Assembly: GCF_003019675.1 (NCBI RefSeq)
Contig: NZ_CP028105.1
Coordinates: 698,282-762,281 of the forward strand
Reading direction: 5' to 3'
Origin: Fusobacterium ulcerans
GTDB lineage: Bacteria > Fusobacteriota > Fusobacteriia > Fusobacteriales > Fusobacteriaceae
Length of the DNA stretch: 64,000 nucleotides
Below are positions 19,578 through 43,480 of the stretch, piece by piece. Below the pieces are notes generated by a model. It was not told the DNA's origin. It saw only the letters and a program-made list of their open reading frames with translations, and made no database searches. The position numbers and the translations under genes are program-made. Positions within the stretch are counted from its first letter, which is position 1. The number at the start of each line of letters is the position of its first letter.

Positions 19578-20135
19578 TTATATTCTAAATGCTCTATAAT
19601 AATTATTATCTTTAAATCCAAATAGTCTTAAATCGATATTTGTATATTCACCTGGAAAAAATAAAAGAACTTTAGTATGATCAAAAATATTCTGTAAATT
19701 ATTCAAAATGGTGTGAGTTCGTACTATAGGAAATATTTTCCCTACTCCTGTTAAAATTATAAAATTTTTATTTTCACTTTTTTGTTCAATATATTTTACA
19801 ATAACCTCACTATTAAAACTTTTTTTTAATTTTTCATATAAAAATCTAGTTCCTTTTTTTTCTTCTATTTTAAAAGAAACATCTAAAATATCATCATTTT
19901 TCATACTTTCAAGCAGCAATTCAAATATATCTATTTCTACAGTTCTTAATCTTTCATTATTTTCTAAAGACGGTAAAAATTCATTTTTAATAAGATCTCT
20001 AACCTCTAACTCAGTTTCTGGAGAATAGTCAAATATATAAAAAGGAACTTCATTCGCTAACCCTTTATTATTATAAAATTCTTCACTTTTTACTTTTTTT
20101 ATTAATCTTTTAAATTTTTCATTTATATTTTCCAT
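19578..20135 (-). CDS. brxB: BREX protein BrxB (DUF1788)
   Basis: A 185-residue cytoplasmic protein of the DUF1788 family. Diagnostic stretches are EVPFYIFDYSPETELEVRDLI, TGVGKIFPIVRTHTILNNL and VLLFFPGEYT followed by LRLFGF. BrxB is needed for BREX methylation and phage exclusion, but its chemistry is unknown. The ATG at 20135 has a GGTGGA site; an ATG four codons earlier has none. Unusually, it is the last gene of the BREX cluster, whereas brxA-brxB normally open it. Confidence 0.9.
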   Translation of the reverse strand: MENINEKFKRLIKKVKSEEFYNNKGLANEVPFYIFDYSPETELEVRDLIKNEFLPSLENNERLRTVEIDIFELLLESMKNDDILDVSFKIEEKKGTRFLYEKLKKSFNSEVIVKYIEQKSENKNFIILTGVGKIFPIVRTHTILNNLQNIFDHTKVLLFFPGEYTNIDLRLFGFKDNNYYRAFRI

Positions 20136-20149
20136 AATTTCCACCATTT

Positions 20150-20737
20150 CTAATAAAGCATTATTTTTAGTATTGATTTACTCCCATTTTCTTTAATTTC
20201 ATCTATGACCTCAGAAATAATAAGAGGTTTTAATATTTTATATAATTTCTCCTTCTCCTTTTTAATAAAACCACTCTCTGTTAAAAAATTTTTTAATTTT
20301 AAAATTATTTTCTTTTTTGTAGGATCACTCCAATTTTCAATAATTTCTGATTGCTCAGCTTTATTCTCTAAAAATTTTATAAATTCACTATCTTTTAGAT
20401 AGTAATCATAATTATTATACTTTTCTCTTATTACTTCATCCATAAATTCTGCCACAATTCTTTCATTGCATAAAATGCTATAAAATATTATAAATTTAGT
20501 AGTATTAGTATCACTATTTACTAAATAATATTTTAAAATAGATGTCAAAGAATTTAATCTTTTATTAACAGTTTGAAACTTTCTATTAAAATTATTTTTA
20601 CTAATACAATCTAAGATGTCCCTTTCCTTAAATATTTCCTTTAAATTTTCTGTAATTTGGTTTTCTACTAAAAATTTACCAGCATTTTTCATTTCAGTAA
20701 AATAAAAATTTTCTCCAGTTATTGCTCTATATTCCAT
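20150..20737 (-). CDS. brxA: BREX protein BrxA (DUF1819)
   Basis: A 195-residue helical protein of the DUF1819 family. The N-terminal YRAITGENFYFTEMKNAGKFL and the late WSDPTKKKIILKLKNFLTESGFI match the family pattern. BrxA homologues bind DNA and are related in fold to NusB-like helical domains. It stands between brxL and brxB, after a 20-base gap, with a GAGG site. Length is normal. Confidence 0.9.
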   Translation of the reverse strand: MEYRAITGENFYFTEMKNAGKFLVENQITENLKEIFKERDILDCISKNNFNRKFQTVNKRLNSLTSILKYYLVNSDTNTTKFIIFYSILCNERIVAEFMDEVIREKYNNYDYYLKDSEFIKFLENKAEQSEIIENWSDPTKKKIILKLKNFLTESGFIKKEKEKLYKILKPLIISEVIDEIKENGSKSILKIMLY

Positions 20738-20757
20738 TTTTACCTCTTTTCAAAATA

Positions 20758-22776
20758 TTATAAAAATCCTAGAGCTTTTTGAACAGCATCAATAGGATCT
20801 TGATAAAAAATAAGCTGGACATCTCCTAAGATATCTGGAGGAAGACTCCCCATATCTTTCGCATTTAATATTGGTATTAATGCTTTTTTAGCTCCAGCTT
20901 CTCTAGCTATTTGAAGGGTATTTGCTAATTCTGAAACTACTAATACAGAGCCTGAAAGAGCCATTTCACCTAATATAACAGTTTGTCCTAATACTTGTCT
21001 ATTAAGTGAATTAGAACACATAGATATAAATCCACCTAATGTAAGATTATCAGACAATCCAACATTTTTTTCATCAGAAACAGACAAATAAAATTCTTTC
21101 TCTGAAATATTAATAGCTCCACTTATTCTTCTAGAATTTATTTTTAAATAACTAAAAGCATTTTCAAAAGTTTTTCTATATTTATTATCTGAAACTGTAA
21201 CTCTTCCTTTTCCAGAAGATACTTGACACTCTATTTTATAAAGTCCTTTTATACTACTATTACAAGATGCAATTGTATAGAGAGACCCTACTTTTAATTG
21301 ACCCTCTGGTATAAGTTTTCCTCCCCCTTGCTCTTTTAAATTAACATATTTTTCTTCACCTATTTCTTTATCAATATAAGAGAAATTAGTTGCAAAAAAT
21401 TCCATTCCAGCCATTTTTTTAAGTTGTTCTTTGACTCTTCTTCTATATTCTAAAGCTCTTACTAATATCTCCTCTACTTCTTCCTTGCCAAACTCTCCAT
21501 CTGGATAAATTAATTTAATAAAGGCTGATACCGTTTTTCTTACTGCAATTGTATCCCTTTGATTTAAATCTCTACCTAAAACAAAGTATTTATCTATTGC
21601 ATCACCATAAGATATCTTCCTAAGTTCCCTAAAAACTTCTGCCATATAATCTACTATCAATCCATATTCTTTTGTAAAACAATGTGGAGAAAGTTTTGGT
21701 ATTTCCCATCCAGGTATATAACTATGCATCCTATCAAAAAATGCAGAATCATTATTCATTTCTGGAGGAAAATCTACAAGAAGATGTGCTGTTTTTACTA
21801 AAACATCTATACTTTGATTTATATTTCCTATAAAAACCATTGATGCATTAGCATTTTTTTCTTCTTTTCCTCTTGCAAAAGAGCCACTTGCCATAAAATC
21901 TTTCATTATTTGAATACCATCTTTATCCTTAAATTTAATCCCTGCAATTTCATCAAAAGCTACTACATCCCAATATCCAACTAAGCCAATTTGTTTTTTT
22001 GACATGTTATAAAATAAATTGGCAACTGTGGTCTGTCCTCCTGAAAGAAGAATGGAATTTGGACTGATCTCTTTATAAATATAAGATTTTCCTGTTCCTC
22101 TTGGTCCTAACTCACAAAGGTTATAATTATTTTCTACTAAAGGGGCCATTCTTCCTAAAAGATGCCAAATTGCATCTTTATCAAAAATTTCTGGTTCCAT
22201 TCCTGTTGATCTTAACAAAAAATTGATCCATTGATTCTTGGTAAACTTTTTTCTTCCATCATAAACATCTAACATATTTAAATTTGCAATCTGAATAGGT
22301 CTTAATTTTTCCAATTTAAATGGTGAATCTCCTACACTTAATTCATCAAATTCATAACTTAGAGTAAGAATACACCATATTCCTCCGCTTAAAAGTTTTT
22401 CAAATTCTTTTATATAAGCACCTGGAATTTCTATATTCCCCACTCCTAGATTTGAAAGTTCCCCTTCATATCTATCTTTTTTTTCATTCAATTTTACATT
22501 TACTTTATCTATGACAGTATAACTTCCTATTTCTTTTATTTTTGATTTTACCTTTTCAGCTTCATCAGGACGAACATAGTTTTCCGCCAATATTTTTTTT
22601 ACTTTTTCCATACCTATTTCTATATTTTCTTTATCTATTTGGTTGCAATACATTCCTAATAAATATTCCAATACATATATAGGTACATTGGCCCCACCTT
22701 TTATTTTAGAAACTAAGTCTTTCTTTACTATTTTTCCTTCAAAAGCCTCATTTCCAATTTCGTTTATTATATCCAT
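20758..22776 (-). CDS. brxL: BREX Lon-like protein BrxL
   Basis: A 672-residue AAA+ protein with a Lon-like C-terminal domain (TIGR02688). Walker A is GPRGTGKS at about residue 222, Walker B is in VVAFDEIAG, and ARGKEEKNANASMVFIGN is the sensor region. The C-terminal part (TVILGEMALSGSVLVVSEL, AREAGAKKALIPILNAKDM) follows the Lon protease fold; a Lys is present in GAKKA, but the classic Lon Ser context is altered. BrxL forms DNA-translocating rings needed for phage exclusion. It follows pglZ by 12 bases. Confidence 0.95.
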   Translation of the reverse strand: MDIINEIGNEAFEGKIVKKDLVSKIKGGANVPIYVLEYLLGMYCNQIDKENIEIGMEKVKKILAENYVRPDEAEKVKSKIKEIGSYTVIDKVNVKLNEKKDRYEGELSNLGVGNIEIPGAYIKEFEKLLSGGIWCILTLSYEFDELSVGDSPFKLEKLRPIQIANLNMLDVYDGRKKFTKNQWINFLLRSTGMEPEIFDKDAIWHLLGRMAPLVENNYNLCELGPRGTGKSYIYKEISPNSILLSGGQTTVANLFYNMSKKQIGLVGYWDVVAFDEIAGIKFKDKDGIQIMKDFMASGSFARGKEEKNANASMVFIGNINQSIDVLVKTAHLLVDFPPEMNNDSAFFDRMHSYIPGWEIPKLSPHCFTKEYGLIVDYMAEVFRELRKISYGDAIDKYFVLGRDLNQRDTIAVRKTVSAFIKLIYPDGEFGKEEVEEILVRALEYRRRVKEQLKKMAGMEFFATNFSYIDKEIGEEKYVNLKEQGGGKLIPEGQLKVGSLYTIASCNSSIKGLYKIECQVSSGKGRVTVSDNKYRKTFENAFSYLKINSRRISGAINISEKEFYLSVSDEKNVGLSDNLTLGGFISMCSNSLNRQVLGQTVILGEMALSGSVLVVSELANTLQIAREAGAKKALIPILNAKDMGSLPPDILGDVQLIFYQDPIDAVQKALGFL

Positions 22777-22788
22777 AAACCTTCCTCT

Positions 22789-25305
22789 CTAAAAATCAAA
22801 ATCTGATGCAATACCTAAATTTACATTATATTCTTTTGAGTCTAAAATATCTCCACTTTCAATATCTGATATTTTTAAAAATACTTTTTTATGCTCTCCG
22901 CTCAAAGTTAATCTAAAATTATATTGAAAATTTTCTTCCGTTGCATTTAATCTAACTTTGAATTCATCACTTACCTTAATCCCAAGCTCTGTATATAAAG
23001 CAGCAACAATATCTCTTTCAATGATTTTTCCCTTTATACTTACAGGTTCTAATTGATATATAGTAAATTTTGTTAAATTAGAAGTTATTTTCCACACACT
23101 TTCTTTTATTCTAACCCCAACCTTTGAAGATTTTTTAGAATTTACTCCACTTTTATAGTGAATTAATGGAACTATCATTTCTTGTGGACTTATCCCACCA
23201 TGAACAAACTGTAATCCATTTCCAAGACTCTTTATTCTTTGATTTTTTATGGGAAATATTCCATATAAATCATTTACATTTAAAGTAATACACCCTTTTT
23301 CTTCTACATAATTGGAATATAATGCGTATCTCTTCCCTATACTAAAATATTCCTGATTACTTAATTCAATTTTATCATATTCTGCTATCTCTTTTCTCTC
23401 ATAAAGAAAACCATGGTCACTTGTTATATAAATATTTACAATTCCAAGACTAGAAAGTGTTTTAGACAATCCTGTTATGTCCTCTATGGTTATATGGCAT
23501 GCTTCAAATGCTCTATTTTCAGTTTTCCCCTTATCTCCAATAGCATCAATGTTATCATGATATATATATATTACTTTTTTACCTTTAATATATTCTTCTT
23601 GTTCTCCTCTGCTCTTATTTTTAAACCTATCAAATGTAATAGCAACTGATTCTCCACAACTAAGCTTTAATATTTTTTCTCTATTTTCAGTATTTAAAGT
23701 ATTTATATTTTTTATGAAAATTTTCTTTTCAATTAAATCAATTTTTTTCTGTGACCCAAATGGAAGAAGATTTGCCATTCCTATTGAAGTTATACTTGGA
23801 AGTTCTGTAATCATTGAATTTAAAATTATTTCTTTTGTATTAGCTTCTTTCATTAATTTTTTAGCTATTTCATTTCCCACTTCAAATCTTAGTGCATCAG
23901 AAATAATAACTGCAACTCTTGTATCAGCCTTTGTTATATGTTCCTTATAGAAGTTTTTTTGTTGTGGCAATTTTTCCCTTTCACTAATATGATTAGACCA
24001 AATTTCTAATAAAATTTCCAAATATTCTTTTTCATAAAAATATGCTATTCTATCTTCAAGTTCGTCTAAAATCCCATATAGTTCATTATTTTTCCCATTA
24101 TCATAAGAATAATAAAATTCTCTATAATATTTATCTATCATATAATATTCACTTGTATAGTCAATAAATACTTCATTTATATTACTTCTTTCTTTAACCG
24201 TTACTGTTTCTTTTAGTCTAAGAATATTTATTGCAGCAAATAATGCTTTATAAAAATAGAAATACTTTTCTCGCCATAAACTATTATCTAACCTTATTTC
24301 AATATACTTTTGATATATATCAAATTCTTTAAATCCAAGAGTTAATCTTTCTACAATGTCTTTAATAACAATTTGATCAAAATATTCAATTCCTATCCCT
24401 TGAACACTGCTTTCTAATTCTAACTCATCTATTCTATCTTTTATATTTATCTCTAGACTTAGATTATAAAACTCTTCTTTTATCATTTTATTAATTTGAT
24501 TATTTTGTAATAAAGATTCCACAAAAAGATAAATTTCATTTGTTTTACCTATATAATATTTTTCTAAATTTATATGAGGTTTTTGTTGTATCCCCCTATA
24601 GAAGTGTACTACTAAAAGTATTTTTAAAAATTGTTTAAAATTATTTACATCTATATCAAATTTTTTCTTTATTTGATTATATAGATATTTTAGTCCCATC
24701 CATTTTTCTACTATTTCTAATTTATTCTTATTTATAATCAAATTCTTCAATATCTCCAGTATCTCTATGCTTTTAGATCCAGAAATACTAGCTAATATAG
24801 ACATTTTTAATTTATTTTCGTTCATATTATCTATATCATTTATCACTTTTTTTAATTTTTCTTTTCTTTCTTTGCTAGCAAAAAATTCTAAATGGTCTTT
24901 AATAATTTTACTTAATTTATAATCTGTTCTATCTAATTTTAATTCCTCTATTATCATTGCAGATTTATCAGCTTCAAAAAATTCTGAATAAAATTCTATA
25001 TCCAAAAGATAATTTTCATTATCTTTTGGCTTTGGATACTCACTATATATTAAATAATTTGATTCAATATCTGCTATTTCTAATGTATACTTTGTTTTAA
25101 ATATATTAGTATCAATCATTTCCCCTTTTTTATTCATTTCTTTTGTCAAAATAATGATTTTTATATTTTCTAACCTTAATTCTTCCATTACATCTTTAAA
25201 TGCTCTATCATTATCATACCAAAAAATTATATGTCTTTTTTTAGGGTATACTGGAGTTAGACTAAATCTATATTCAAGCATCTCTTTTATCTTTTCAATT
25301 TCCAT
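22789..25305 (-). CDS. pglZ: BREX alkaline-phosphatase-fold protein PglZ
   Basis: An 838-residue protein whose PglZ domain (about residues 460-760) has the alkaline phosphatase fold. VAVIISDALRFEVG holds the metal-binding Asp and nucleophile region, SITSIGMANLLPFG follows, and YITSDHGFLYER holds the late Asp/His metal ligands. The N-terminal half is helical, with IIFWYDNDRAF at the start. PglZ is the shared core of all BREX types and pairs with PglX. It begins the second BREX transcription unit, directly after a consensus promoter. Confidence 0.95.
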   Translation of the reverse strand: MEIEKIKEMLEYRFSLTPVYPKKRHIIFWYDNDRAFKDVMEELRLENIKIIILTKEMNKKGEMIDTNIFKTKYTLEIADIESNYLIYSEYPKPKDNENYLLDIEFYSEFFEADKSAMIIEELKLDRTDYKLSKIIKDHLEFFASKERKEKLKKVINDIDNMNENKLKMSILASISGSKSIEILEILKNLIINKNKLEIVEKWMGLKYLYNQIKKKFDIDVNNFKQFLKILLVVHFYRGIQQKPHINLEKYYIGKTNEIYLFVESLLQNNQINKMIKEEFYNLSLEINIKDRIDELELESSVQGIGIEYFDQIVIKDIVERLTLGFKEFDIYQKYIEIRLDNSLWREKYFYFYKALFAAINILRLKETVTVKERSNINEVFIDYTSEYYMIDKYYREFYYSYDNGKNNELYGILDELEDRIAYFYEKEYLEILLEIWSNHISEREKLPQQKNFYKEHITKADTRVAVIISDALRFEVGNEIAKKLMKEANTKEIILNSMITELPSITSIGMANLLPFGSQKKIDLIEKKIFIKNINTLNTENREKILKLSCGESVAITFDRFKNKSRGEQEEYIKGKKVIYIYHDNIDAIGDKGKTENRAFEACHITIEDITGLSKTLSSLGIVNIYITSDHGFLYERKEIAEYDKIELSNQEYFSIGKRYALYSNYVEEKGCITLNVNDLYGIFPIKNQRIKSLGNGLQFVHGGISPQEMIVPLIHYKSGVNSKKSSKVGVRIKESVWKITSNLTKFTIYQLEPVSIKGKIIERDIVAALYTELGIKVSDEFKVRLNATEENFQYNFRLTLSGEHKKVFLKISDIESGDILDSKEYNVNLGIASDFDF

Positions 25306-25338
25306 GATAATATCCTTTCATCATTTTTTCTATAATTT

Positions 25339-25367
25339 AGTATATCTAAAACTACAAAAATAAGCAA
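25339..25367 (-). promoter_or_regulatory. Predicted promoter of the pglZ-brxL-brxA-brxB unit
   Basis: On the minus strand, TTGCTT and TATACT are separated by exactly 17 bases, about 35 bases before the pglZ start codon and just downstream of the large terminator. This supports a separate second BREX transcript. Confidence 0.75.
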
Positions 25368-25403
25368 GGAAAAGAAGCACTTCTAATCACACTTTTTAAA
25401 ATA

Positions 25404-25454
25404 AAATAAAACCTAATAGAATAAGAAATTTTCCCTTATTATTAGGTTTTATTT
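25404..25454 (-). terminator. Strong terminator inside the BREX cluster
   Basis: A perfect 15-bp arm (AAATAAAACCTAATA with its complement) continues through one bulge into a further 6 bp, around a 9-base loop. On the minus strand it runs into repeated TTTTA. It ends the brxC-pglX-DUF262 transcript. Confidence 0.85.
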
Positions 25455-25472
25455 AACAATATAGAATTATTT

Positions 25473-25767
25473 TTATTGTTTTCTATAATCATTCAAAAGT
25501 TTTCCTTCAAAAGTTTTCCATTCAGTCCATCCATTTGCTGATCTTCCTAAAATTAATGCTGCTGCTGCACTTGGTGATGTCATTTTATAATTTTCTTTAA
25601 AAATATATTTATTTTCTAAATCTTCTATTATATTTTCTTTTAATAAAGTTTCAATATTTTTTTATTTTGTTTTTCAACTGATTCATAAATTATTTTGCTA
25701 ATTGTACTTCCTTTTAAAGTTTCTATTAGACAACTATTTTCCTGTTCCTGAAAAATTTACTCCTTTT
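25473..25767 (-). pseudogene. Broken DUF4357-domain gene
   Basis: The minus strand reads FKGSTISKIIYESVEKQNKK in one frame and, after a run of seven A at 25657-25663, ETLLKENIIEDLENKY in another, on to SPSAAAALILGRSANGWTEW and a stop at 25473. That last stretch is the signature of DUF4357, a small domain found with nucleases and restriction systems. One extra A would restore the frame, but a TAG further upstream and the lack of a start codon after the AAAAGGAG site show more damage. The upstream piece is in the same frame as the DUF262 gene, so an old C-terminal fusion is also possible. Confidence 0.7.
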
Positions 25768-25778
25768 AATAAAATGAT

Positions 25779-27473
25779 TTATTCAACATCTCCTATTTTT
25801 CTCATTTCTGGTCTTCTCCAAATTTGAATTATATCTTTATAAAGATTTTCAAATCTCTCTGCCATTTTTAGAAGATCCCATTCATCTAACTTTCCTAAAT
25901 ATCCATTTAAATATAGTTTGCTATTTTTATATCCATAGATAATATCATCTCTTTTACAAGAAAAGGACTTACTTCTTAGATTAGAGTCACTTCTAATTAA
26001 AGTAAGATTTGAAATTGTATCTTTAACTCTTTTCATATATTCAAACTCAGTCTTTGAATATTTTTCTTTCCAATCTTTATTAGGTTTTTGAGGAAATATA
26101 TGTCCAATTATAATTTTTCCATTATGAAAATCTATTGGTTCATTATGATAATAATTTTCTAATCTTTGAAAAACATAATTTAATTTATCTTTGTCTTTAT
26201 AGAGTGGTTTTAATTTTAAAGACTGTTTTAACTCTTCATCTGTTGGAAAGCCTTGGTTTAATAAAATACTTTCTAAAACATTATAATACTTTCCATCTTT
26301 AGATGTTTTAGAATACATCCCTTGAAATAATTTACTTAAAGCATTTGATGGTTCTCCTGTTATATATCTTCTCCATATATAACTTTGAAGTAGTTTCAGA
26401 ATATTAATAGTTTCTTTTTTAGATATTTTCTCTTCTTTACAGTCTCTTAGTACCCCTATAAGAAAAGGGGTAATAACTGTTTGATCTAAAATTTTTAAGT
26501 ATTCTAATTCTTTTCTTAATTGTAAATCTTTTTCTAATTTAGGTTTTCTAATAATAGCATAAAAATATGAATATATTTTTATATCTTCAAGTATATCATC
26601 AGTTTTTCCTTGATAGAATTTTTTAAATTCCTCAAATACTTTTGATTTTGTAGGAATTTTACTATTTTTTAATGTCAAATAATCTCTTATAAAGTCAGAT
26701 ATATAACTTATTATTTTGCTTCCATCACTAACTTTACAGTTATTCTCAATAGGTAGCCATATGTCTTTATATATTTTATTTTGCTCAGTTTTTTCTAAAT
26801 CCATCAATATATAATTTTTAATCAAATCCCCCTGAGATAAATCTAATCCTGTTGAGTTCAAACTTTCAAATATCTTTTGTGGATCGTCCTTTCCCTTTTC
26901 CAAAGCTATATCAACATATATCAACTTTTCTATTCCCTTTAAAAAACATTCTATCTCTTCTCCCGATAAATTTTCTACTGAATTTTTAAAAAATATATAA
27001 TTTTTTAACATATTTCTATCTTGATACTCTTCCAATTCATTAAAAAAATTTTTAGATATTTTATTTAAGATAATTAAATTTTCTTCTGGAGGCAATAATT
27101 TTAAATTCATCTCTTTTTCTGAATACTTATTTATTATATATTGCTCATATATTTTATCAGCTGCTCTTTTATTTGTTTCTTTCAATTTATAATAAAGTGC
27201 TAAAAATAAAAGAGTTATAGTAGTCATTCTTTGTTGTCCATCAATTACATAAAATTCCTTTTCTCCAATACTATATACTCCATCATGAATGTACACTATA
27301 CTCCCAATAAAATGAGAACTCACATTCATATCTTTACCTACCTTTAATATATTATCAAAAAGTAGTTGGCAATGTTTTTCTTGCCAATTATAATCTCTTT
27401 GATAAACTGGTATAGAAAAAACTGTGTCTACCTCTGAAAATAAATCTATAATCTTTTTTTCACTAGCCTTCAT
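25779..27473 (-). CDS. DUF262-DUF1524 (GmrSD/BrxU-like) type IV restriction protein
   Basis: A 564-residue protein. The N-terminal DUF262 domain has PVYQRDYNWQEKHC (about residues 22-35) and VIDGQQRMTTITLLFLAL (about 77-94), the ParB-like NTPase-type motifs of GmrS. The C-terminal DUF1524 domain carries the HNH-like IIGHIFPQKPNKDW and RVKDTISNLTLIRSDSNLRSKSF with a final CKR, as in GmrD. Such proteins cut modified phage DNA; BrxU, carried by some BREX islands, is the known example. It lies between pglX and pglZ on the same strand, 29 bases after pglX, with a GGAG site, so it belongs to the BREX transcript. Confidence 0.88.
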   Translation of the reverse strand: MKASEKKIIDLFSEVDTVFSIPVYQRDYNWQEKHCQLLFDNILKVGKDMNVSSHFIGSIVYIHDGVYSIGEKEFYVIDGQQRMTTITLLFLALYYKLKETNKRAADKIYEQYIINKYSEKEMNLKLLPPEENLIILNKISKNFFNELEEYQDRNMLKNYIFFKNSVENLSGEEIECFLKGIEKLIYVDIALEKGKDDPQKIFESLNSTGLDLSQGDLIKNYILMDLEKTEQNKIYKDIWLPIENNCKVSDGSKIISYISDFIRDYLTLKNSKIPTKSKVFEEFKKFYQGKTDDILEDIKIYSYFYAIIRKPKLEKDLQLRKELEYLKILDQTVITPFLIGVLRDCKEEKISKKETINILKLLQSYIWRRYITGEPSNALSKLFQGMYSKTSKDGKYYNVLESILLNQGFPTDEELKQSLKLKPLYKDKDKLNYVFQRLENYYHNEPIDFHNGKIIIGHIFPQKPNKDWKEKYSKTEFEYMKRVKDTISNLTLIRSDSNLRSKSFSCKRDDIIYGYKNSKLYLNGYLGKLDEWDLLKMAERFENLYKDIIQIWRRPEMRKIGDVE

Positions 27474-27502
27474 TAAATTTAATCTCCTGTTTTATATTTA
27501 TT

Positions 27503-30500
27503 TTATATTTTTCTTAATATTTTTCCAAATTTTTCATAATTAACTTTTACTCCATCGTCTAAATCTAATACAATTTTTTGCTCAGCTATATGTTTTACCT
27601 CATTTGCATATTCTCTTAGTTCTTTCAGGTTATTTTCTAATTCTTTTAATTTTTTCTCAGCAATTTTTTTATCCTTTGGAATAGTTTTACCATCTATAAC
27701 TATTTTTTCATAATAAGATCTTTGATTTTCTATTATTTCTTGATAAGGTGTAAGATAATCAGTTCTCATTCTAGCAATAGTATTTTCTTCATATCTATGT
27801 AGATATACAAGACATGAAAAAGAATTTTTCTTACCACTGTTCAGCATCCAATAAATTGGCCTTTTTTTGTATCTTTGAAGATGATCATCATAAAAATCTT
27901 TTATAAAGTATTTTCTTAATACTTCTTCAGCTGTTTCATCTTTCTTCTTTCCTAGAGCTTCAGCTATAAATTCAAGATTTTTTTTCAAGTTCTTTTCTCC
28001 ATATAGAATTTTCACAAATTCTATTACCTTCTTCACAATATCATTTTCAAAAACTTCTTCTTCTGTTACAGGAATAATTCCATAGACATCAGCAAAAAAT
28101 CTTGATTCCTCTATTTCATGTCTAATTTCTCCATCTGTCCCTTTTATAACGACTTTATTTCCTTCAATAATCAAGTTATCATCGGAATTAGCAATTATAA
28201 GTCCAGGTTTATCTATTGAATATCTTCCCATAATACAACCTATAGTATATGATAAAAATTGTTTTACTAATTCTTCTTTATTAAATTCCAGTTCTACTCC
28301 TCTATTAAATAGATATCCTTCTGAAGTTTTTTCCATTTCTTCAAATCCTTCTTCTATTTGTATGGAATTAGTAACTATTTTTTTTATAGTTGCCTCTTTT
28401 TTTAATAATGTAATATCTTCAAATTCTACTTTCTCATCCATTTCATCTTGTAATTCATATATATTTATAAAAATCCTGTTTAGCTCTTCCTCATTTTTAT
28501 GCATTTGGACAAATTGATTTCTCCAATAATTACAGTAAGAATCGTATGCTGATTCTAAATTTTCCCCATCAATTAAAGAAAGCTTTTCAAAATCCCAAGA
28601 AGTTTCACGAAAGTCCCATTCTTGTTTAGATATATTTATACATTTTTCTGTTAGACAATTAATTTTTTTGAAAACTTCTAAATCTTCAGTAAAATAAATG
28701 GGTATTTCTTTAACAGTTCCAGATGTCAAATTTAAAGTAGGTGCTATAAACTCGAAAATTCTTTTCATAATTTTCATATTAAAAAAACTCATTGTATATA
28801 AAAAGTTTTTATCCTGTTTAAGAAAAACAGAATCAGCAGCTTGATCAAAAATAAAATCTGGTTTTAAAAGTCTAATTGTATTTACCCCAGAAGTAATCCT
28901 TTTCCAACTAAATCCTTTTTTGAAAAAAAATTTCTCGTTTCTTATAACAGCACTTTTTTCATTTTTTACTTCCTTACCGTTATCCTTCCAGTTAATAAGG
29001 CTATCCAAGTTACCATACCATTTTCTTGAATCTCCTCCCATTTGATATAAAGCCCATTTTTTATCTCTAAAATCATATCCACTAGGTTTAAAATTTATAT
29101 TATTTATAGAGACTTCACTCCAATCTCTTGTATAATAAGAATTATTCCCTGTTTGCATTCCTGTTGCGGGATATGATATAGTTTCCATTGTTTCCGAAGA
29201 TGAAATAATTTTCACTTCTTTTTTACTCAACCAATATCCTAAACGATTTCCTGGGATTTTTTCAAAATCTTTTTGATATGCTTTATATTTATTGAGGGGA
29301 TTAAAAAATTCATTTTCCTTCCATTCAGCACTATTATAATCTACTAATCTTATATAATTTCCTGATATTTCTGGCATTTTATTCTTACTTACCCAAGCAA
29401 CAGTTTGAAGTACTTCTCCTCCAATATCTGCAAATGCCCTTGTCCCCAAATGAGTTAAATTTTGTATCTCTGTATTTTCTATAATATTTTTTCTTAAATT
29501 TTCAAAGCTACTTAAAAACATCCAAGAGTGCATTGTTATCATTGAGGTATACATATTTTCCTTAGTAAATTCCTCACATTTCTCTATAAATAGAGAGAAC
29601 ATATCACTTTTACTATTCTTATAATTCTTTTCAACATACTTTTTTAATTTTTCATCCATTCCACTACTACTCATATATGGGGGGTTAGTTATAACTACCT
29701 CATACTTATCTGCCATTATTTTTTGCTGATGTATCATTCCTTTTATTTTTTTAAAATCTTCATCTATATTTCCATCTAAAATGTCATTTCCTCTGAACAT
29801 GGATGTTTGACCTTGATTTTTTAATATTTCATTTAAAGATTTAAATTCTTCTTCTAACTTTTTTGTATCTATATCTTCTATTTTTAAAATACTTCCATAT
29901 TCTTTAGCATCATAAAAATTATCAAGCATTATAGCTAAATTTTTTAATGAATTTTCAGCTATTAATTTTCTTGTTCTTGTAGATATATTATTACTTTCTT
30001 TTATCACTAATATGTTTAACTTAAATTTTTCTTCACCATCTAATTTTTCCAATACTTTGAATAGTCTAGGAAACTTTTCTTTTGCCTTCATCATTATTGC
30101 AAATGAAGCAAGTTGAGCAGCTCTCTCATCTATTTCTAATCCCAATATATTGTTTTTCATTATAGATAATACTGCATCTTTTTTACTCCAACCAAGATTC
30201 TCATATATTTCAAAAAGTATGTCAAAAGAATAAGTAAGCATATGGCCGCTCCCCATCGCTGGATCAAGTATTTTTATATCTTCTATTTTTATTTTTTCAA
30301 CATTTATATCTTTTTCAGTTTCTATATAGTATTTCCAATTTTTTTTAATTTCTGAGTCTACTCCTAATGATTCTATAGCTAACTTTCCCAATGAATTTTC
30401 TACCATATATTTAACTATCCATTTAGGTGTAAATAATTGTGTTGCTGCTGGTATATTCTCCTTTGTTATTTTTTTATTTTTTTTCAATCCCTCAAAAACT

Positions 30501-31174
30501 TCATTTTTCTTTTCAGAGTTATAATATTGGTACAACCAACCTATTAATTCTATTGGCACCAAACCATTTTCTTTAGATTCCTCTATTTCATATCTTAGTT
30601 TTACAAGAACAGAATTATCCATTAATAATCCTGAAGGAAAGAGTATATCAGAATATCCCCCCTTTTTTGAAAATATAAATGGCATAATAGATGAAAGTTC
30701 CTCACATTTTTCTTCTACCAATATAGAATACATCTTTTCTAGAGATTCTAGAGTATTTTTATCTTTCAATTCATGTATTTTTTTCTGTTCTTCTCTTTCT
30801 AATTTTTGAAAAAAATTAGCTTCAAGATATTCATCTATAATTGCTGGCTCTATTTTTGAGCCATTACTAAATACCATTTTTTCATCTATATATTTATTTG
30901 CTTCCATATATGCCAAGGCTATAAGCCTATTGAACCATATATATGCACTTTCCTCTATTAATTCATCATATCCAAGTTCCTTATATTTTTCAATCAACTT
31001 ATTATAACTTGATTTAGAGTATAGATTTCCTTTTACTTCTACTTGACTTCCTAATATTACTGGAATATCTAAATTATTTTTATTTATTCCAAGTATTTTC
31101 AATCTAACTTCCATTTTTCTCATAAGTTCTTTTCTAGCTTCTATAGCAAATATTTTTAGGCTATTCTTATTCAC
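27503..31174 (-). CDS. pglX: BREX adenine-specific DNA methyltransferase PglX
   Basis: A 1223-residue class I methyltransferase of full length. The SAM-binding motif I is DPAMGSGHMLTY at about residue 302, and catalytic motif IV is NPPYMSS at about residue 495. The C-terminal half contains target-recognition sequence, and a tail (RYKKRPIYWMLNSGKKNSF) is typical of BREX-1 PglX. It methylates adenine in a short non-palindromic site to mark self DNA. The start is GTG with a GGGAGG site. A perfect 13-bp hairpin lies between it and brxC. I saw no long simple repeat that would suggest phase variation. Confidence 0.96.
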   Translation of the reverse strand: MNKNSLKIFAIEARKELMRKMEVRLKILGINKNNLDIPVILGSQVEVKGNLYSKSSYNKLIEKYKELGYDELIEESAYIWFNRLIALAYMEANKYIDEKMVFSNGSKIEPAIIDEYLEANFFQKLEREEQKKIHELKDKNTLESLEKMYSILVEEKCEELSSIMPFIFSKKGGYSDILFPSGLLMDNSVLVKLRYEIEESKENGLVPIELIGWLYQYYNSEKKNEVFEGLKKNKKITKENIPAATQLFTPKWIVKYMVENSLGKLAIESLGVDSEIKKNWKYYIETEKDINVEKIKIEDIKILDPAMGSGHMLTYSFDILFEIYENLGWSKKDAVLSIMKNNILGLEIDERAAQLASFAIMMKAKEKFPRLFKVLEKLDGEEKFKLNILVIKESNNISTRTRKLIAENSLKNLAIMLDNFYDAKEYGSILKIEDIDTKKLEEEFKSLNEILKNQGQTSMFRGNDILDGNIDEDFKKIKGMIHQQKIMADKYEVVITNPPYMSSSGMDEKLKKYVEKNYKNSKSDMFSLFIEKCEEFTKENMYTSMITMHSWMFLSSFENLRKNIIENTEIQNLTHLGTRAFADIGGEVLQTVAWVSKNKMPEISGNYIRLVDYNSAEWKENEFFNPLNKYKAYQKDFEKIPGNRLGYWLSKKEVKIISSSETMETISYPATGMQTGNNSYYTRDWSEVSINNINFKPSGYDFRDKKWALYQMGGDSRKWYGNLDSLINWKDNGKEVKNEKSAVIRNEKFFFKKGFSWKRITSGVNTIRLLKPDFIFDQAADSVFLKQDKNFLYTMSFFNMKIMKRIFEFIAPTLNLTSGTVKEIPIYFTEDLEVFKKINCLTEKCINISKQEWDFRETSWDFEKLSLIDGENLESAYDSYCNYWRNQFVQMHKNEEELNRIFINIYELQDEMDEKVEFEDITLLKKEATIKKIVTNSIQIEEGFEEMEKTSEGYLFNRGVELEFNKEELVKQFLSYTIGCIMGRYSIDKPGLIIANSDDNLIIEGNKVVIKGTDGEIRHEIEESRFFADVYGIIPVTEEEVFENDIVKKVIEFVKILYGEKNLKKNLEFIAEALGKKKDETAEEVLRKYFIKDFYDDHLQRYKKRPIYWMLNSGKKNSFSCLVYLHRYEENTIARMRTDYLTPYQEIIENQRSYYEKIVIDGKTIPKDKKIAEKKLKELENNLKELREYANEVKHIAEQKIVLDLDDGVKVNYEKFGKILRKI

Positions 31175-31186
31175 TCTTTCCTCCCA

Positions 31187-31217
31187 AAAATTGTCATAGC
31201 TCTACTATGACAATTTT
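31187..31217 (-). terminator. Perfect hairpin between brxC and pglX (attenuator or processing site)
   Basis: AAAATTGTCATAG and its exact complement form a 13-bp stem with a 5-base loop; on the minus strand it ends in five T and then runs at once into the GGGAGG site of pglX. It lies 7 bases past the brxC stop. It could stop part of the transcripts, protect the upstream mRNA end, or affect pglX translation. Confidence 0.65.
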
Positions 31218-31223
31218 ATTTTA

Positions 31224-34200
31224 TCAATTTATATCTACTATCTTATTTTTTTTAATAGCTTCTAACATTTTAAATTTTAATTCTTCTATTTCTCTTTCTA
31301 ATTCAGTTATATAAAGTTGTACTTGCTCTTCTGTTTCTAAATTATATTTTGAAGTTACATTTATCCTTCTTAGTTTAATTCTTTCCTTTTTTTTAGCTTT
31401 TCCATTACTTTGTTGAATGAATCCATCTTTATCTTTTTTTGCCATTTCTATTATTTTCTCTAAATTTTCTAATTCTTTTTTTTCTACTTCTTCCTTAAAA
31501 CTATTATATGTTACTTTTATCTCTTTTACAAGTTCTTCTATATCTGTCTTATCTTCTAATATACTAATAAGCTCTTTTTCTATACTATTAATTTCTTCTT
31601 TAATACTATTTCTATATTCTGTTTCTATATTAAATATAATATTTTCTAACTTTCTTCCTCTCAAAAAAATATTTGTATCTTTTATTTTATTTATTTCTTC
31701 AATAAAATCTTGCAGATTATTGTTAACCCTATTTAAAATAGCATCTCTATCTTTTAATACTTCTGAGAAAAACTCATTTTTTTTCTCTACTTTTTTCTTT
31801 AAATTATTTTTTTCATTTTCAATCAATATATTTTCTTCTAAATTTATAGCAGATATCAAATCATCTATTTCTCTTATTCTTGAATACGGATTATTATCCC
31901 TAACTATTTCTAAAAGAATATTATAGGCAGAATTATCTTTCAAACTCCCAACAAAATCAATATATTCTTCAATTCTTTTTATTTTATCAAGAGCTTCATC
32001 ATATTTTCTTTTTTTAGAATTAGTAAAAAAATCTACTACAGTTGATTGCTTTTCATATAAATCATACAACTCTTCTTCCATATCTAAAAAATCTTGTAAT
32101 ACTTTTTCCGCTTTTCCTTTAGAAAAAAGTATCTCTTTTAATAACTCTTTCCATTCTTTCAATTCTTTTTTTCCTGGATAATTTTTTTCGTTATATTCAC
32201 TTTCATATTTGCTAACACAACCTATTTTTTCCTTAAGAATAACAAATAATTCTTCCTTGGGTGAATTATTGGTAATCTCAACTCCATTTCCAAAAAAACT
32301 TTTTAATATATTATTCACTTTTTTTATAAGTTCTATATCTATTTCTTCTTTTAAAGTTATTACCACTCTCTCTAAATTTCTATTTTGAGATTTTATCAAA
32401 AGTTCTTTTGCTTCTTTTGCTTCTGTAACTATTACTTTTGATTCTTCTAAATTAATATATTTATATGTCCATAGTTCTGCTATTATTCCATTGATTGAAA
32501 ATTGATCCCATCCATAAGGTATTTTTGTAAAATAATCAGATAAATCCTTTAATGTTATATTCATCCCTCTTTTTTCTTGTATTGTAATCTTATTTAAAAC
32601 TTCTTTAATTGCTTCACAATTTACATTAGTCTCTAAATCTTTTTCTATTTTAATAAGTTGATCATTTCCAGAAAAATCATATGTTAATACTTCTTTTATT
32701 TTATTTTCATCATATTTTTTTACAATTAATCTTGCATTTTTAAATCTATAATTAGCAGCAGCTTTAAGTGCTTCCTCTATTACTTTCCCAGCATCTTTTG
32801 CTTTTATACTGATTTTATGTCCATATATAAATACTTCTGCTTCTTGTAAAGCTATTTCTATATTATTTTGTATTCTTCTTTTTCTATTTTGATTTTCTCT
32901 TTGTTTGCTTTCTAGTATTCTAATTACAGCTTCTCTTACATTTTCTCTTTGTTTTCTCTTTATATATGACTCAATTTTTAAAGATTTTTTTATTTCTTCC
33001 ATATATCCTTCTTGATTTTCTGGAAGCTTAATAATAAGATCATACCCTTCTCTCAAACCAATAAATTCTATATTATTATAATTATCTGCACTAGGGGTAA
33101 AAATAACTATATCAATTTGCCCTCCTAGCTTACCAAAAGGATATTCATCTATTTTTCTACTAAAGCTGTATTTATTTCCTGTTTCCTCAATTGAAATATT
33201 ATTTTTATTAAAAATCTCCTTAAAAATATATGAATCAAGTTCCTTATATATATCATTAAAATCTATTTCTTCTTGATTTACTTCTCTGTTTATATCTTGC
33301 TCTTCATTTGTAAGAAAATAATAATTATCTCCATCTTTTTGGATTAATACTTGTTGTTCTAATTTTTCTAAAGCTTTTTTTATTTTTGCTTCAAGATTAA
33401 TTCTATCACATTCTATTGAATTAATCATAAAACTAGCTAAAGTATTTAAATTGGGTTCTATTCCATTGATTCCTTTTAATAAGAATAATAATTTTAAAAC
33501 TTCTAATCCGAATTCATCAATACCTCTTTCATTCTTAGCATGAATAATAGGTCTTCTAGCGTTATCTTCTAAAAATTGTTCTATTGATTCATAAAAATAA
33601 TTAAATGGAACTATTGTTCCCAATGACATATCTTTTACTCTAATTCCTGCTTCTTGAAATGAACTCAATAACGATCTTTCCCCTCTTGACATATGTTGCC
33701 CAGAATGTCCCATTTCTCTAACTTTTTCAAATACTTTTTGTAATAAATTAAATTGATACCCTACAAAAGGATAAGTCTCAGCAAAATCAAACTTATCTTT
33801 ATACAAAGAAAGAGTCATTCCTTTTTTATCAAAACTTATTAAATTTTCAATATCAATTCTCTTTTTTTCGTATAAATTTTCAATATCTTCTCTTTCAATT
33901 TCTCTTTTTTCTAATAATCTTTTCTTTATTACTTCATCTATGTTCCCACTTGATAATGGTAAAATAGTTTTAAACCTATCTTGAATTTTTGAAAAATCAT
34001 TTCTTCTACTATCGTTTGCAGTTAAAATTGTTCCTAAATCTTGTTGTGATGTTACTCCTATCCATACTCTTCCTTGAAATTTTACTCCCAAAGTTTCTAC
34101 TAAAGTTTGTAAGTTTAACATAAGTTGAGAATTTTCACCTATATATTGCCCTATTTCATCTACCAAAAATACTATTCTTTGCTTAGCTCCTTTTATTTTT

Positions 34201-34952
34201 AAATATCCTTCTATTAAATCTCTAAAACTTTCTGCACTAACAGATTTTATACTTTCTTTGTCAAGCCATCTCTCTGCACTTTCTCTAGTCATAATCTGCA
34301 TCTTTTCTATAACATCAAGAAATTCATCAGCATGAAAATCTAAATTTCTACTTCCATCTTTCCAAGTTTTCCCTGATTCTTCTTCAAAAAACTTTTTAAA
34401 TTCTTCAAATTTTCCTTCTTCCCAAAGCATTCTTTCAAATTCAGCTACTTTTATATCATCTCTTGAAAAGCCTAAATATTCATTAAATTTTTTTAAAAAT
34501 GCTACTGCAATACTATCTTTATTTTGATAAGTATCCTGATCACTAACATTATCTATATTAAAAAGAATTACATCAGTTGGAACTTCAGATGCTTTTTCTA
34601 TATTTCCTTGCAATATTGCATCTTTTAATTTACTTTCAAAAAATTCTGTTACTTTTTTCTCTCCATATTTCTTATTTTCTAATATACGACCAATCATTTT
34701 TAAAAGATGAGATTTTCCTGATCCAAAAAAACCTGAAATCCATACTCCTATATCTTCAGTTGAACTATTTAAAGAATCTACATATTTATCAAAAAATTTT
34801 GTTAAATGTTTTCTTATTTCTTCAGTTACCACATATTCACTTAACTCTGTTATTATAGTTTCTTCTTGATTACTTTCTGCTTTTACTACTCCATTTATTT
34901 TTCTTGTAATATCTTTTTGAAGTATATCTTTTATACTCAAATCACTTTTCAT
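31224..34952 (-). CDS. brxC: BREX P-loop ATPase BrxC
   Basis: A 1242-residue protein and first gene of the BREX cluster. Walker A is GFFGSGKSHLLKMIG at about residues 68-82; Walker B is in QRIVFLVDEIGQYIGE; a sensor-like GRVWIGVTSQQ follows. The C-terminal third is long charged coiled coil. BrxC (DUF499/P-loop BREX family) is needed for exclusion and interacts with PglX and PglZ. The second of two close ATGs is used because AGGAG stands three bases from the first and nine from the second. No convincing -35 was seen in the 300 bases upstream. Confidence 0.95.
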   Translation of the reverse strand: MKSDLSIKDILQKDITRKINGVVKAESNQEETIITELSEYVVTEEIRKHLTKFFDKYVDSLNSSTEDIGVWISGFFGSGKSHLLKMIGRILENKKYGEKKVTEFFESKLKDAILQGNIEKASEVPTDVILFNIDNVSDQDTYQNKDSIAVAFLKKFNEYLGFSRDDIKVAEFERMLWEEGKFEEFKKFFEEESGKTWKDGSRNLDFHADEFLDVIEKMQIMTRESAERWLDKESIKSVSAESFRDLIEGYLKIKGAKQRIVFLVDEIGQYIGENSQLMLNLQTLVETLGVKFQGRVWIGVTSQQDLGTILTANDSRRNDFSKIQDRFKTILPLSSGNIDEVIKKRLLEKREIEREDIENLYEKKRIDIENLISFDKKGMTLSLYKDKFDFAETYPFVGYQFNLLQKVFEKVREMGHSGQHMSRGERSLLSSFQEAGIRVKDMSLGTIVPFNYFYESIEQFLEDNARRPIIHAKNERGIDEFGLEVLKLLFLLKGINGIEPNLNTLASFMINSIECDRINLEAKIKKALEKLEQQVLIQKDGDNYYFLTNEEQDINREVNQEEIDFNDIYKELDSYIFKEIFNKNNISIEETGNKYSFSRKIDEYPFGKLGGQIDIVIFTPSADNYNNIEFIGLREGYDLIIKLPENQEGYMEEIKKSLKIESYIKRKQRENVREAVIRILESKQRENQNRKRRIQNNIEIALQEAEVFIYGHKISIKAKDAGKVIEEALKAAANYRFKNARLIVKKYDENKIKEVLTYDFSGNDQLIKIEKDLETNVNCEAIKEVLNKITIQEKRGMNITLKDLSDYFTKIPYGWDQFSINGIIAELWTYKYINLEESKVIVTEAKEAKELLIKSQNRNLERVVITLKEEIDIELIKKVNNILKSFFGNGVEITNNSPKEELFVILKEKIGCVSKYESEYNEKNYPGKKELKEWKELLKEILFSKGKAEKVLQDFLDMEEELYDLYEKQSTVVDFFTNSKKRKYDEALDKIKRIEEYIDFVGSLKDNSAYNILLEIVRDNNPYSRIREIDDLISAINLEENILIENEKNNLKKKVEKKNEFFSEVLKDRDAILNRVNNNLQDFIEEINKIKDTNIFLRGRKLENIIFNIETEYRNSIKEEINSIEKELISILEDKTDIEELVKEIKVTYNSFKEEVEKKELENLEKIIEMAKKDKDGFIQQSNGKAKKKERIKLRRINVTSKYNLETEEQVQLYITELEREIEELKFKMLEAIKKNKIVDIN

Positions 34953-34958
34953 AAACAT

Positions 34959-35200
34959 TCTCTCCTTACAAACTTAAGTTATTTTCTTTATATTTTATCA
35001 TAAACATTTAATTAATTTAATATTAAAATTCCTTTACTAATTTTACTTTTTATTGTTTTCTTTTTAGATATCAAAATCTTAATTTTTATTTTTCTAACTT
35101 CTTCACTACTTTTAATTGTATCATTTTTTAAAAAGGATTAATAGTTCTTCTTTACCTTAATTTTAGATATTGTCACAATTTTTATATATTATTTTAAAGC
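34959..35200. other. Gene-free AT-rich stretch upstream of brxC
   Basis: No open frame, repeat or RNA structure was recognised. An extended -10-like TGATACAAT occurs on the minus strand near 35117-35126, and a TATGAT lies near 35000, but neither has a good -35. One of them probably starts the brxC transcript. Confidence 0.4.
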
Positions 35201-35228
35201 AAAAAAATACTACAGATTTCTCTGTAGC
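35201..35228 (-). terminator. Rho-independent terminator of the AAA/PD-(D/E)XK gene
   Basis: On the minus strand GCTACAGA, a GAAA tetraloop and TCTGTAGT are followed by seven T after one A. It isolates the ATPase gene from brxC. Confidence 0.88.
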
Positions 35229-35259
35229 ATTCACAATAATATTTTTCACAATAAAAATT

Positions 35260-36903
35260 CTATTTATAATCTACTAACAAGTTTTTTTTGTAAAAAGCTA
35301 TACCTATTTTAACTATATCTTTTATTCCTCTTTCTTCTAATATAGCAGTATATTTTTTCTTTTCTATTTGATCCAAAGCTTCTTTTACATGATATTCTAA
35401 TTTTTCCTCTGATTCTACTTTAGACAACTTAAATTCAAATATATAACCAGTATGATTTTTATGTCTAGGTTCTAATATTATATCTGCTCTTCCATCTCCT
35501 GTTTCTGTATTAGAAAGAACTACATATTCTTTTTCCAGTATTACCATCAAACCTAATACAAATCCATGATAAAAAGCTTCTTTGTTATCATAAGAACTCA
35601 TTGCCACCTGTAGTATTCTTCTTAAATTAGATTCAAATGAATTTTCTCCTATAATTCTTTTTTTCTTTAAATTAGTAATCATATCTTCAAAATATCTTGT
35701 ATTCTTATTAGAAATTTTTTCTAAGAACACCTTTCTAAAAAATGAATATATTTCTCTATTAGGTATTTTCATAGAAATTTTTTCAGAAGTTATTATTTTA
35801 TCAAGAGAAAGATATCCAGTGTATAGGAGTAAAGACCATAAACTATTCTGTACAGTCAAATCATCAAACAGTAAATTTTCATCTATATATTGTTCTACAC
35901 TTTCTCCTGAAAATAATTTTTTTAAATCTTCAAAAATTTCATTGTCAGCTTCTTTTAAAACCTCGTTTATTAAAAAGTTATCTGAGCTATTTACCCAATA
36001 TGATTTTAATAATCTACTTTCTATATAGTACAAAATTGACCACGGATTATATATTTCTGTATTTCCAAACTTATACCCATTATACCAGTTTCTTACTTCT
36101 TCCAATTTATATTCAATTTGATAATATTTTAAAGCTGATTCAACTTCATCTTCTGTAAGCCCAAAATATTGTGAATAGTTATCATCTAATATACTGTAAA
36201 CCATTAGATTATTCAATCCAGAAAATATTCCTTCTTTGGCTACTCTTAATATTCCTGTCATTACACCAATATAGAGATACTTATTTCCTTTTAAAGTTGA
36301 ACTATACAATCCTCTAAAAAATTCCATAGCTTCTTTATAGTAACCATTTTCATATGCTGAAACAATAGCTGTATCATATTCATCAATTAAGACAACTACT
36401 TTTTTTCCATATTGATCATACAATAATTGTGACAAAAATTTCAAAGAATTAATTGCTTCAACTTCGTTTACCTCTTTTTTTAAATAATTAATAAACAGCT
36501 CTTTATCAATTGGATTCAAGTCATCTAAAATATCAATATTTTCTCTGTACACTTCACTTATCAATATTTTAACCTGTTCAAACAATTTTTCATAAGTATT
36601 AAATTTAACTTCTTTAAAAGAAATAAATATGACTGGATATTGACCTTGTTCAACCATTGTTGAAGTTTTTTCTATATTTAGACTTTTAAATAATTCTCTA
36701 TTTTTTTTATTTCCTTTTATATCATAAAAATATTTCAGCATAGACATATTTAAAGTTTTTCCAAATCTTCTTGGTCTTGTAAATAACAGTGTTTTCCCTA
36801 TATTTTTAGATATCTCTTCAATAAACAGACTCTTATCTGCATAAAAATAATCATTATCTATTATATTTTTAAAATCATCTATTCCTATTGGCAGCTCCTT
36901 CAT
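35260..36903 (-). CDS. AAA-ATPase-like protein with C-terminal PD-(D/E)XK nuclease domain
   Basis: A 547-residue protein. The N-terminal AAA-ATPase_like domain (PF09820 type) has LPIGIDDFKNII, YFYADKSLFIEEI and the P-loop-like RPRRFGKTLNMSML (about residues 37-50), and VVVLIDEYDTAI is Walker B. The C-terminal region (YEPR-like EPRHKNHTGYIFEFKLSK) carries the acidic and Lys residues of a PD-(D/E)XK nuclease fold. The family is widespread and often repeated in anaerobe genomes; its role is unsettled, with defence or mobile-element links suggested. The start at 36903 has an AGAGGTG site; an extended -10 (TGGTATAAT) lies upstream. Confidence 0.85.
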   Translation of the reverse strand: MKELPIGIDDFKNIIDNDYFYADKSLFIEEISKNIGKTLLFTRPRRFGKTLNMSMLKYFYDIKGNKKNRELFKSLNIEKTSTMVEQGQYPVIFISFKEVKFNTYEKLFEQVKILISEVYRENIDILDDLNPIDKELFINYLKKEVNEVEAINSLKFLSQLLYDQYGKKVVVLIDEYDTAIVSAYENGYYKEAMEFFRGLYSSTLKGNKYLYIGVMTGILRVAKEGIFSGLNNLMVYSILDDNYSQYFGLTEDEVESALKYYQIEYKLEEVRNWYNGYKFGNTEIYNPWSILYYIESRLLKSYWVNSSDNFLINEVLKEADNEIFEDLKKLFSGESVEQYIDENLLFDDLTVQNSLWSLLLYTGYLSLDKIITSEKISMKIPNREIYSFFRKVFLEKISNKNTRYFEDMITNLKKKRIIGENSFESNLRRILQVAMSSYDNKEAFYHGFVLGLMVILEKEYVVLSNTETGDGRADIILEPRHKNHTGYIFEFKLSKVESEEKLEYHVKEALDQIEKKKYTAILEERGIKDIVKIGIAFYKKNLLVDYK

Positions 36904-36937
36904 AAATCTACACCTCTCTTTCATCTCATTCTTTTAT

Positions 36938-38285: not shown

Positions 38286-38300
38286 TAACATTTGCTCCTT

Positions 38301-43479: not shown

Positions 43480-43480
43480 T

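Follow-up and report, generated by a model that had tools for sequence, protein, structure and literature searches.

A complete type I BREX locus in Fusobacterium ulcerans with brxA-brxB at its tail, a lineage-specific gene order apparently undescribed in the literature searched

The DNA analyzed here, called the window throughout, is a stretch of 64,000 nt of Fusobacterium ulcerans (NZ_CP028105.1, 698,282-762,281; coordinates below are window positions), and the subject of this study is the type I bacteriophage exclusion (BREX) system on its minus strand, in which brxA and brxB stand at the tail of the cluster. The order on that strand is brxC-pglX-gmrSD-pglZ-brxL-brxA-brxB, with each gene at or near full profile length. 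The first core gene, brxC (31224-34958; 1244 aa), carries a Walker A motif (GFFGSGKS) at residue 76, and is followed by pglX (27503-31174; 1223 aa, GTG start), a BREX-1 adenine methyltransferase by family with NPPY at residue 497. Next come gmrSD (25779-27473; DUF262 plus DUF1524, with DGQQR at residue 78), a putative type IV restriction gene and BrxU-like accessory, pglZ (22789-25305; 838 aa, BREX-1 PglZ type A) and brxL (20758-22776; 672 aa, Walker A GPRGTGKS at residue 224). Displaced to the tail, and each present as a single genomic copy, are brxA (20150-20737; 195 aa) and brxB (19578-20147; 189 aa). A sequence-only reading of this DNA had proposed that all six type I genes are present at full length, in this order and with a DUF262 gene after pglX; PADLOC, Pfam and NCBIfam profiles bore out the gene content, the order stood, the DUF262 gene proved to be of the GmrSD type, and the right edge given for the system (34952) left out the first 6 bases of brxC, which starts at 34958.

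Each core protein had its own family as the top PADLOC match with nearly the whole profile covered (E-values of 6.6e-59 for BrxB, 5.1e-41 for BrxA, 2.1e-303 for BrxL, 4.7e-183 for PglZ, and 0 for both PglX and BrxC). NCBIfam cut-offs were exceeded by BREX-1 PglX (NF033452, 1314.7 bits against a cut-off of 500), PglZ type A (TIGR02687, 425.9 against 270.35), BrxL and BrxC, and the Pfam BrxA and BrxB families both scored above their cut-offs. The GmrSD protein joins GmrSD_N (3.9e-37) and GmrSD_C (1.7e-17) in one polypeptide by Pfam. Additionally, PglX matched the solved BrxX/PglX chains 8zek, 9ewz and 8c45 over its full length, BrxA matched the solved BrxA 7zge, and PglZ and BrxB matched the PglZ and BrxB chains, respectively, of the same solved complexes (9zn5, 9nv3 and 9zll).

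The locus holds the full type I content (brxA, brxB, brxC, pglX, pglZ and brxL) in a layout other than brxA-brxB-brxC-pglX-pglZ-brxL, which is the canonical order of E. coli HS, Salmonella StyLTII and B. cereus. Because BREX types are set by protein content, according to passages of PMC12839542, we treat the usual gene order as typical and not as defining; that order was taken from the head-order loci of this analysis and from PMC12707154.

A whole-genome search of the host (a single contig of 3.54 Mb) returned exactly one BrxA and one BrxB, and therefore no second brxA-brxB pair stands at the head. Such a pair elsewhere had been named in the sequence-only reading as an observation that would overturn it, and the genome-wide search found none. 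Using tail order for brxA-brxB after pglZ-(brxL) and head order for brxA-brxB in first place, we found the tail order at seven loci in six Fusobacteriaceae genomes, with two of these loci (one in a relative of the same genus, G029, and one on contig C97 of genome G046) being without BrxL. BrxA occurred in 9 of the 98 genomes of the phylum sample, at 10 loci; all six BrxA loci of Fusobacteriaceae (61 genomes) had the tail order and all four of a second fusobacterial family, perhaps Leptotrichiaceae, had the head order. The seventh tail locus, that of Fusobacterium vincentii SB055 (NZ_CP084075.1), comes from outside the 98-genome sample.

Beyond the phylum, none of the 92 BrxA loci with a resolvable order was of the tail type (102 examined, 92 head, 10 without a clear order). 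In the phylum samples, the loci classified were at most the best 30 BrxA per sample, amounting to 31 from Bacillota, 15 from Pseudomonadota and 30 from Bacteroidota, behind which stood 41, 15 and 39 genomes with a BrxA match, respectively; a second Bacillota sample consisted of the same genomes as the first and added only G105. Among the 80 BrxL loci nearest to that of the window there was one tail case, a Fusobacteriaceae contig (L034) with the gene content of contig C107 of G046, and brxA after brxL was seen in none of the 65 that had at least 1300 bases past brxL. Whole-genome BrxA searches in 45 BrxL-neighbor genomes gave the head order in all 38 resolved cases (7 gave no clear order), with 30 of the 102 other-phyla loci coming from these 45 genomes. 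A BrxA tblastn returned one phage and 13 plasmid records; query coverage above 80% was reached only in F. vincentii (a 2.1-Mb record labeled plasmid), the one record of the 14 in which gene order was classified, and no brxA was detected on 17 viral contigs with BrxL relatives. The tail order is not a chance occurrence, nor is it widespread, and it is Fusobacteriaceae-specific in this sampling.

Three of the tail loci are contiguous from brxC to brxB, namely those of the window, F. vincentii and G029. The G029 locus (L120 5895-16993) is a complete brxC-pglX-pglZ-brxA-brxB set in which pglZ and brxA lie 24 bases apart, and a search of the whole genome at E<=0.001 found no BrxL; as G029 is nested inside the tail clade described below, loss of brxL is likely. 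The C97 locus (L121) is a second BREX-like locus in G046, with a Fic gene, pglZ, brxA, a 313-aa brxB, an unknown gene and a 708-aa gene. Genome G009 (L155/L156) has Zorya-like genes, recognized by eye, upstream of brxC. Its brxC and pglX are separated by genes for AAA_21 and a weak RloB match, its pglX is followed by AAA_5 and LlaJI-type genes, and the end of its contig repeats the genes before it in inverted orientation, which is probably an assembly fold-back. The F. vincentii record (L258/L262) is almost without annotation, and its size suggests a chromosome; no brxA or brxB was found upstream of its brxC.

A BrxA tree, built from proteins of 170-270 aa with duplicates removed and 52 randomly kept of the 98 head rows, placed the six tail rows in one clade (support 100/95) and required one change of order. 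Quick trees of PglZ and BrxC, with random subsets of head loci and with five and three tail rows, also grouped the tail rows, with Shimodaira-Hasegawa approximate likelihood-ratio test (SH-aLRT) values of 98-100; the BrxC tree, from which the BrxC of G046 and F. vincentii were left out, came with a warning of long branches meeting. The window locus joined with G009, and then with G029, in identical branching in all three trees. Since the tail loci form one clade in all three, they are most simply explained by one ancestral permutation, which would have taken place in the ancestor of the tail loci, with later inheritance or exchange inside the family. Going from ABCXZL to CXZLAB amounts to a cyclic rotation, which might have come about by tandem duplication with complementary losses or through a circular intermediate. 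The core proteins of the window and F. vincentii sets are 51-84% identical, and the order has therefore outlasted much divergence; the BrxA of genomes with the tail order is 36-57% identical to that of the window. Taken together, these results suggest, with a probability that we put at about 0.8, a type I BREX system that is complete and probably functional, in which the order brxC-pglX-(cargo)-pglZ-brxL-brxA-brxB is a rotation that arose once in Fusobacteriaceae and was then kept.

The gaps within pglZ-brxL-brxA-brxB are 12, 20 and 2 bases in the window, and two terminator-like hairpins bound the parts of the locus. The one between the upstream neighbor gene and brxC (35190-35259, minus strand; -18.1 kcal/mol, z -4.7) indicates that BREX probably starts its own transcript. 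The other, an intrinsic-terminator-like hairpin between gmrSD and pglZ (25390-25462, minus strand; -18.1 kcal/mol, z -4.45), is followed just 5' of pglZ by a promoter-like TTGCTT-N17-TATACT (25306-25389, minus strand); in an alignment, F. vincentii has TTGCAG-N17-TATACT at the corresponding position, next to a terminator-like hairpin or immediately past it. Because this AT-rich region abounds in promoter-like matches (142 observed against 129.9 expected), the motif carries weight solely through its conservation in F. vincentii. From these sequence features, the locus is most likely expressed as two transcripts: the first, brxC-pglX-gmrSD, would stop at the hairpin near 25.4 kb, and the second, pglZ-brxL-brxA-brxB, would begin at a promoter immediately 5' of pglZ. 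The claim that brxA and brxB expression is tied to pglZ-brxL is therefore probably right, given the short gaps and the hairpin and conserved motif before pglZ, whereas the regulatory anomaly that it was taken to imply is weakly founded: methylation needs PglZ (PMC13326643, in part) and BrxB binds PglZ (PMC12205998, in part).

Directly behind gmrSD lies a frameshifted DUF4357 remnant (25476-25658, minus strand; PF14267, E 8.7e-20), which may once have been the C-terminal domain encoded by the GmrSD gene or by some other cargo gene; its position suggests that the remnant and the hairpin arrived with the cargo. A further, strong hairpin lies in the brxC-pglX gap (31175-31223, minus strand; -14.6 kcal/mol, z -7.2), is followed by five U and is a possible attenuator. 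It recalls the Salmonella internal terminator brxCt described in PMC12707154, and as a conserved feature it was rejected, the G029 gap at that place being just 19 bases. The five genes of G029 are spaced 19-24 bases apart and look like one operon.

In the predicted mode of action, PglX with BrxB, BrxC and PglZ (and BrxA in some systems) would methylate one adenine of an asymmetric site, which in type I BREX is a 6-bp site carrying m6A, and BrxL with the remaining proteins would block unmethylated phage DNA. Phage DNA containing modified cytosines would be the separate target of the GmrSD protein. Methylation requires BrxB, BrxC, PglX and PglZ, as stated in sections of PMC13326643, and BrxB is tightly complexed with PglZ, Acinetobacter BrxB being soluble only with PglZ, according to parts of PMC12205998 and PMC13326643. 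Since BrxB binds PglZ and methylation needs PglZ, the coupling of brxB to pglZ is no handicap, and we infer that core function is unchanged by the permutation and that the window holds what is most likely a functionally ordinary type I BREX.

The pglZ-(brxL)-brxA-brxB block is uninterrupted in all seven tail loci, with gaps of -4 to 24 bases, and the cargo of tail loci sits at the brxC-pglX and pglX-pglZ junctions. In head-order loci, gaps of more than 300 bases occurred at pglX-pglZ in 31 of 63 cases, at brxC-pglX in 5 of 48 and at pglZ-brxL in 3 of 79, which makes the pglX-pglZ junction the principal place for cargo in BREX at large. Cargo at this junction would separate brxB from pglZ in the usual order and could not do so in the tail order, and a cargo-borne terminator, as predicted in the window and in F. 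vincentii, would split the locus into brxC-pglX on one side and pglZ-brxL-brxA-brxB on the other. Published work on E. coli, as given in part of PMC12205998, describes toxicity of brxC and pglX co-expression that is relieved pairwise by the other four genes. It is conceivable that the permutation created a co-expressed, insertion-proof block, with the second transcript as a safety module needed for the first to be tolerated; we consider this unlikely, and neutral retention of an old permutation fits the data equally well and is the more likely of the two. With brxA-brxB riding with pglZ, and with brxL cleanly absent in one complete member, these loci are ready-made constructs for asking which genes need co-expression, how BrxC-PglX toxicity arises and how BREX tolerates cargo genes.

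Several observations weigh against a single rotation kept in two transcripts. Four of the seven tail loci (that of G009, two in G046 and that of G049) are cut by contig ends, and the decayed DUF4357 tail shows that constraint on the locus is not uniform. Furthermore, G029 has no room for a terminator in the 19 bases before pglZ; the two-transcript model therefore cannot fit every tail-order member, and the split is not a constant feature of the tail order.

Four other explanations of the map were considered. Deletion of a head brxA-brxB followed by capture of an unrelated pair at the tail would yield the same map as a move, and the BrxA tree does not clearly show which group is sister to the tail clade; however, the branching of that clade matches PglZ and BrxC, so any capture would be as old as the clade, and the genes preceding brxC in F. 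vincentii showed no trace of a head pair, which makes such a chimera improbable. The frameshift in the DUF4357 remnant before pglZ would suit a decaying, non-functional locus in which order had ceased to matter. We hold this to be quite improbable, as the six core genes all have intact reading frames of nearly full length, with Walker A motifs in BrxC and BrxL and NPPY in PglX, and as the order was kept despite the low BrxA identities given above.

The tail order might also be a common, already catalogued BREX arrangement in an unremarkable lineage, a possibility that the sequence-only reading had itself raised against its proposal. Published maps show representative neighborhoods only, and other orders may have been drawn. 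Against it stand the absence of the tail order from the 92 other-phyla loci and the 38 resolved BrxL neighbors, and the absence of any description in the literature searched, where maps drawn without comment may hold an example; a full-text search for BREX, Fusobacterium and brxC together returned no paper, and a term search of the accessible portion of PMC12839542 found no description. We regard this explanation as very improbable and the order as real, lineage-specific and apparently undescribed in the literature searched. A collapsed repeat in the host assembly could permute genes, and G009 does show a contig-end fold-back, but seven loci from six separate assemblies agree and the host genome is a single contig, which renders an assembly artefact hardly credible.

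Upstream of brxC on the minus strand lie a gene for a protein with AAA-ATPase_like and PDDEXK_9 domains by Pfam (35260-36924) and a complete Wadjet type II system, jetA2-jetB2-jetC2-jetD2 (37002-44974), with all four type II genes found. The flanks of this region (up to roughly 19.5 kb on one side and beyond roughly 45.04 kb on the other) are 89-92% identical to those of the relatives G026 and G028, where they enclose 9.5 and 7.5 kb of other genes. The Pfam scan, which covered the proteins of G026, identified hsdR, hsdM, hsdS and another GmrSD-type gene in that insert; look-alike reading frames stand beside the left flank in G028 and G027. The site at 19500-45040 seems to swap defense cargo, as a hotspot that now holds BREX, the AAA/PDDEXK gene and Wadjet II. 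A precise empty site was rejected, since the site is occupied by other genes in G026 and G028 and a 63-base match in G027 adjoins such genes. No tRNA was found in the window, and no brxR was seen among the genes neighboring its BREX system.

Compared with canonical type I BREX, the window locus shares all six core genes, a BREX-1 PglX, a type A PglZ and BrxL, and differs in that brxA-brxB stands at the tail and that its PglZ and BrxC fall in a clade of their own in Fusobacteriaceae; brxA-brxB comes first in the type I loci of Salmonella, E. fergusonii and Acinetobacter, per the published layouts that were checked. The type I BREX of E. fergusonii pEFER likewise has a GmrSD-family type IV enzyme embedded in it, its brxU lying between brxC and pglX (passages of PMC8565348), whereas gmrSD of the window lies between pglX and pglZ. 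A transcription start before pglZ is reported for pEFER and is predicted for the window; the transcripts of E. fergusonii are ABCUX and ZL, and the principal starts in Salmonella lie upstream of brxA and pglZ (sections of PMC12707154), whereas in the window A and B follow L. The fusobacterial layout would appear to have retained the start before pglZ and placed brxA and brxB behind pglZ. Within the family, F. vincentii SB055 shares the tail order and the terminator-like hairpin before pglZ and differs in its cargo: the brxC-pglX interval holds AAA_21, an unassigned gene of 259 aa and a Schlafen-type gene, and the pglX-pglZ interval holds HATPase, DUF4209 and AAA/PDDEXK genes. G029 shares the tail order and lies within the tail clade, and differs in being without BrxL and in having no cargo between its core genes.

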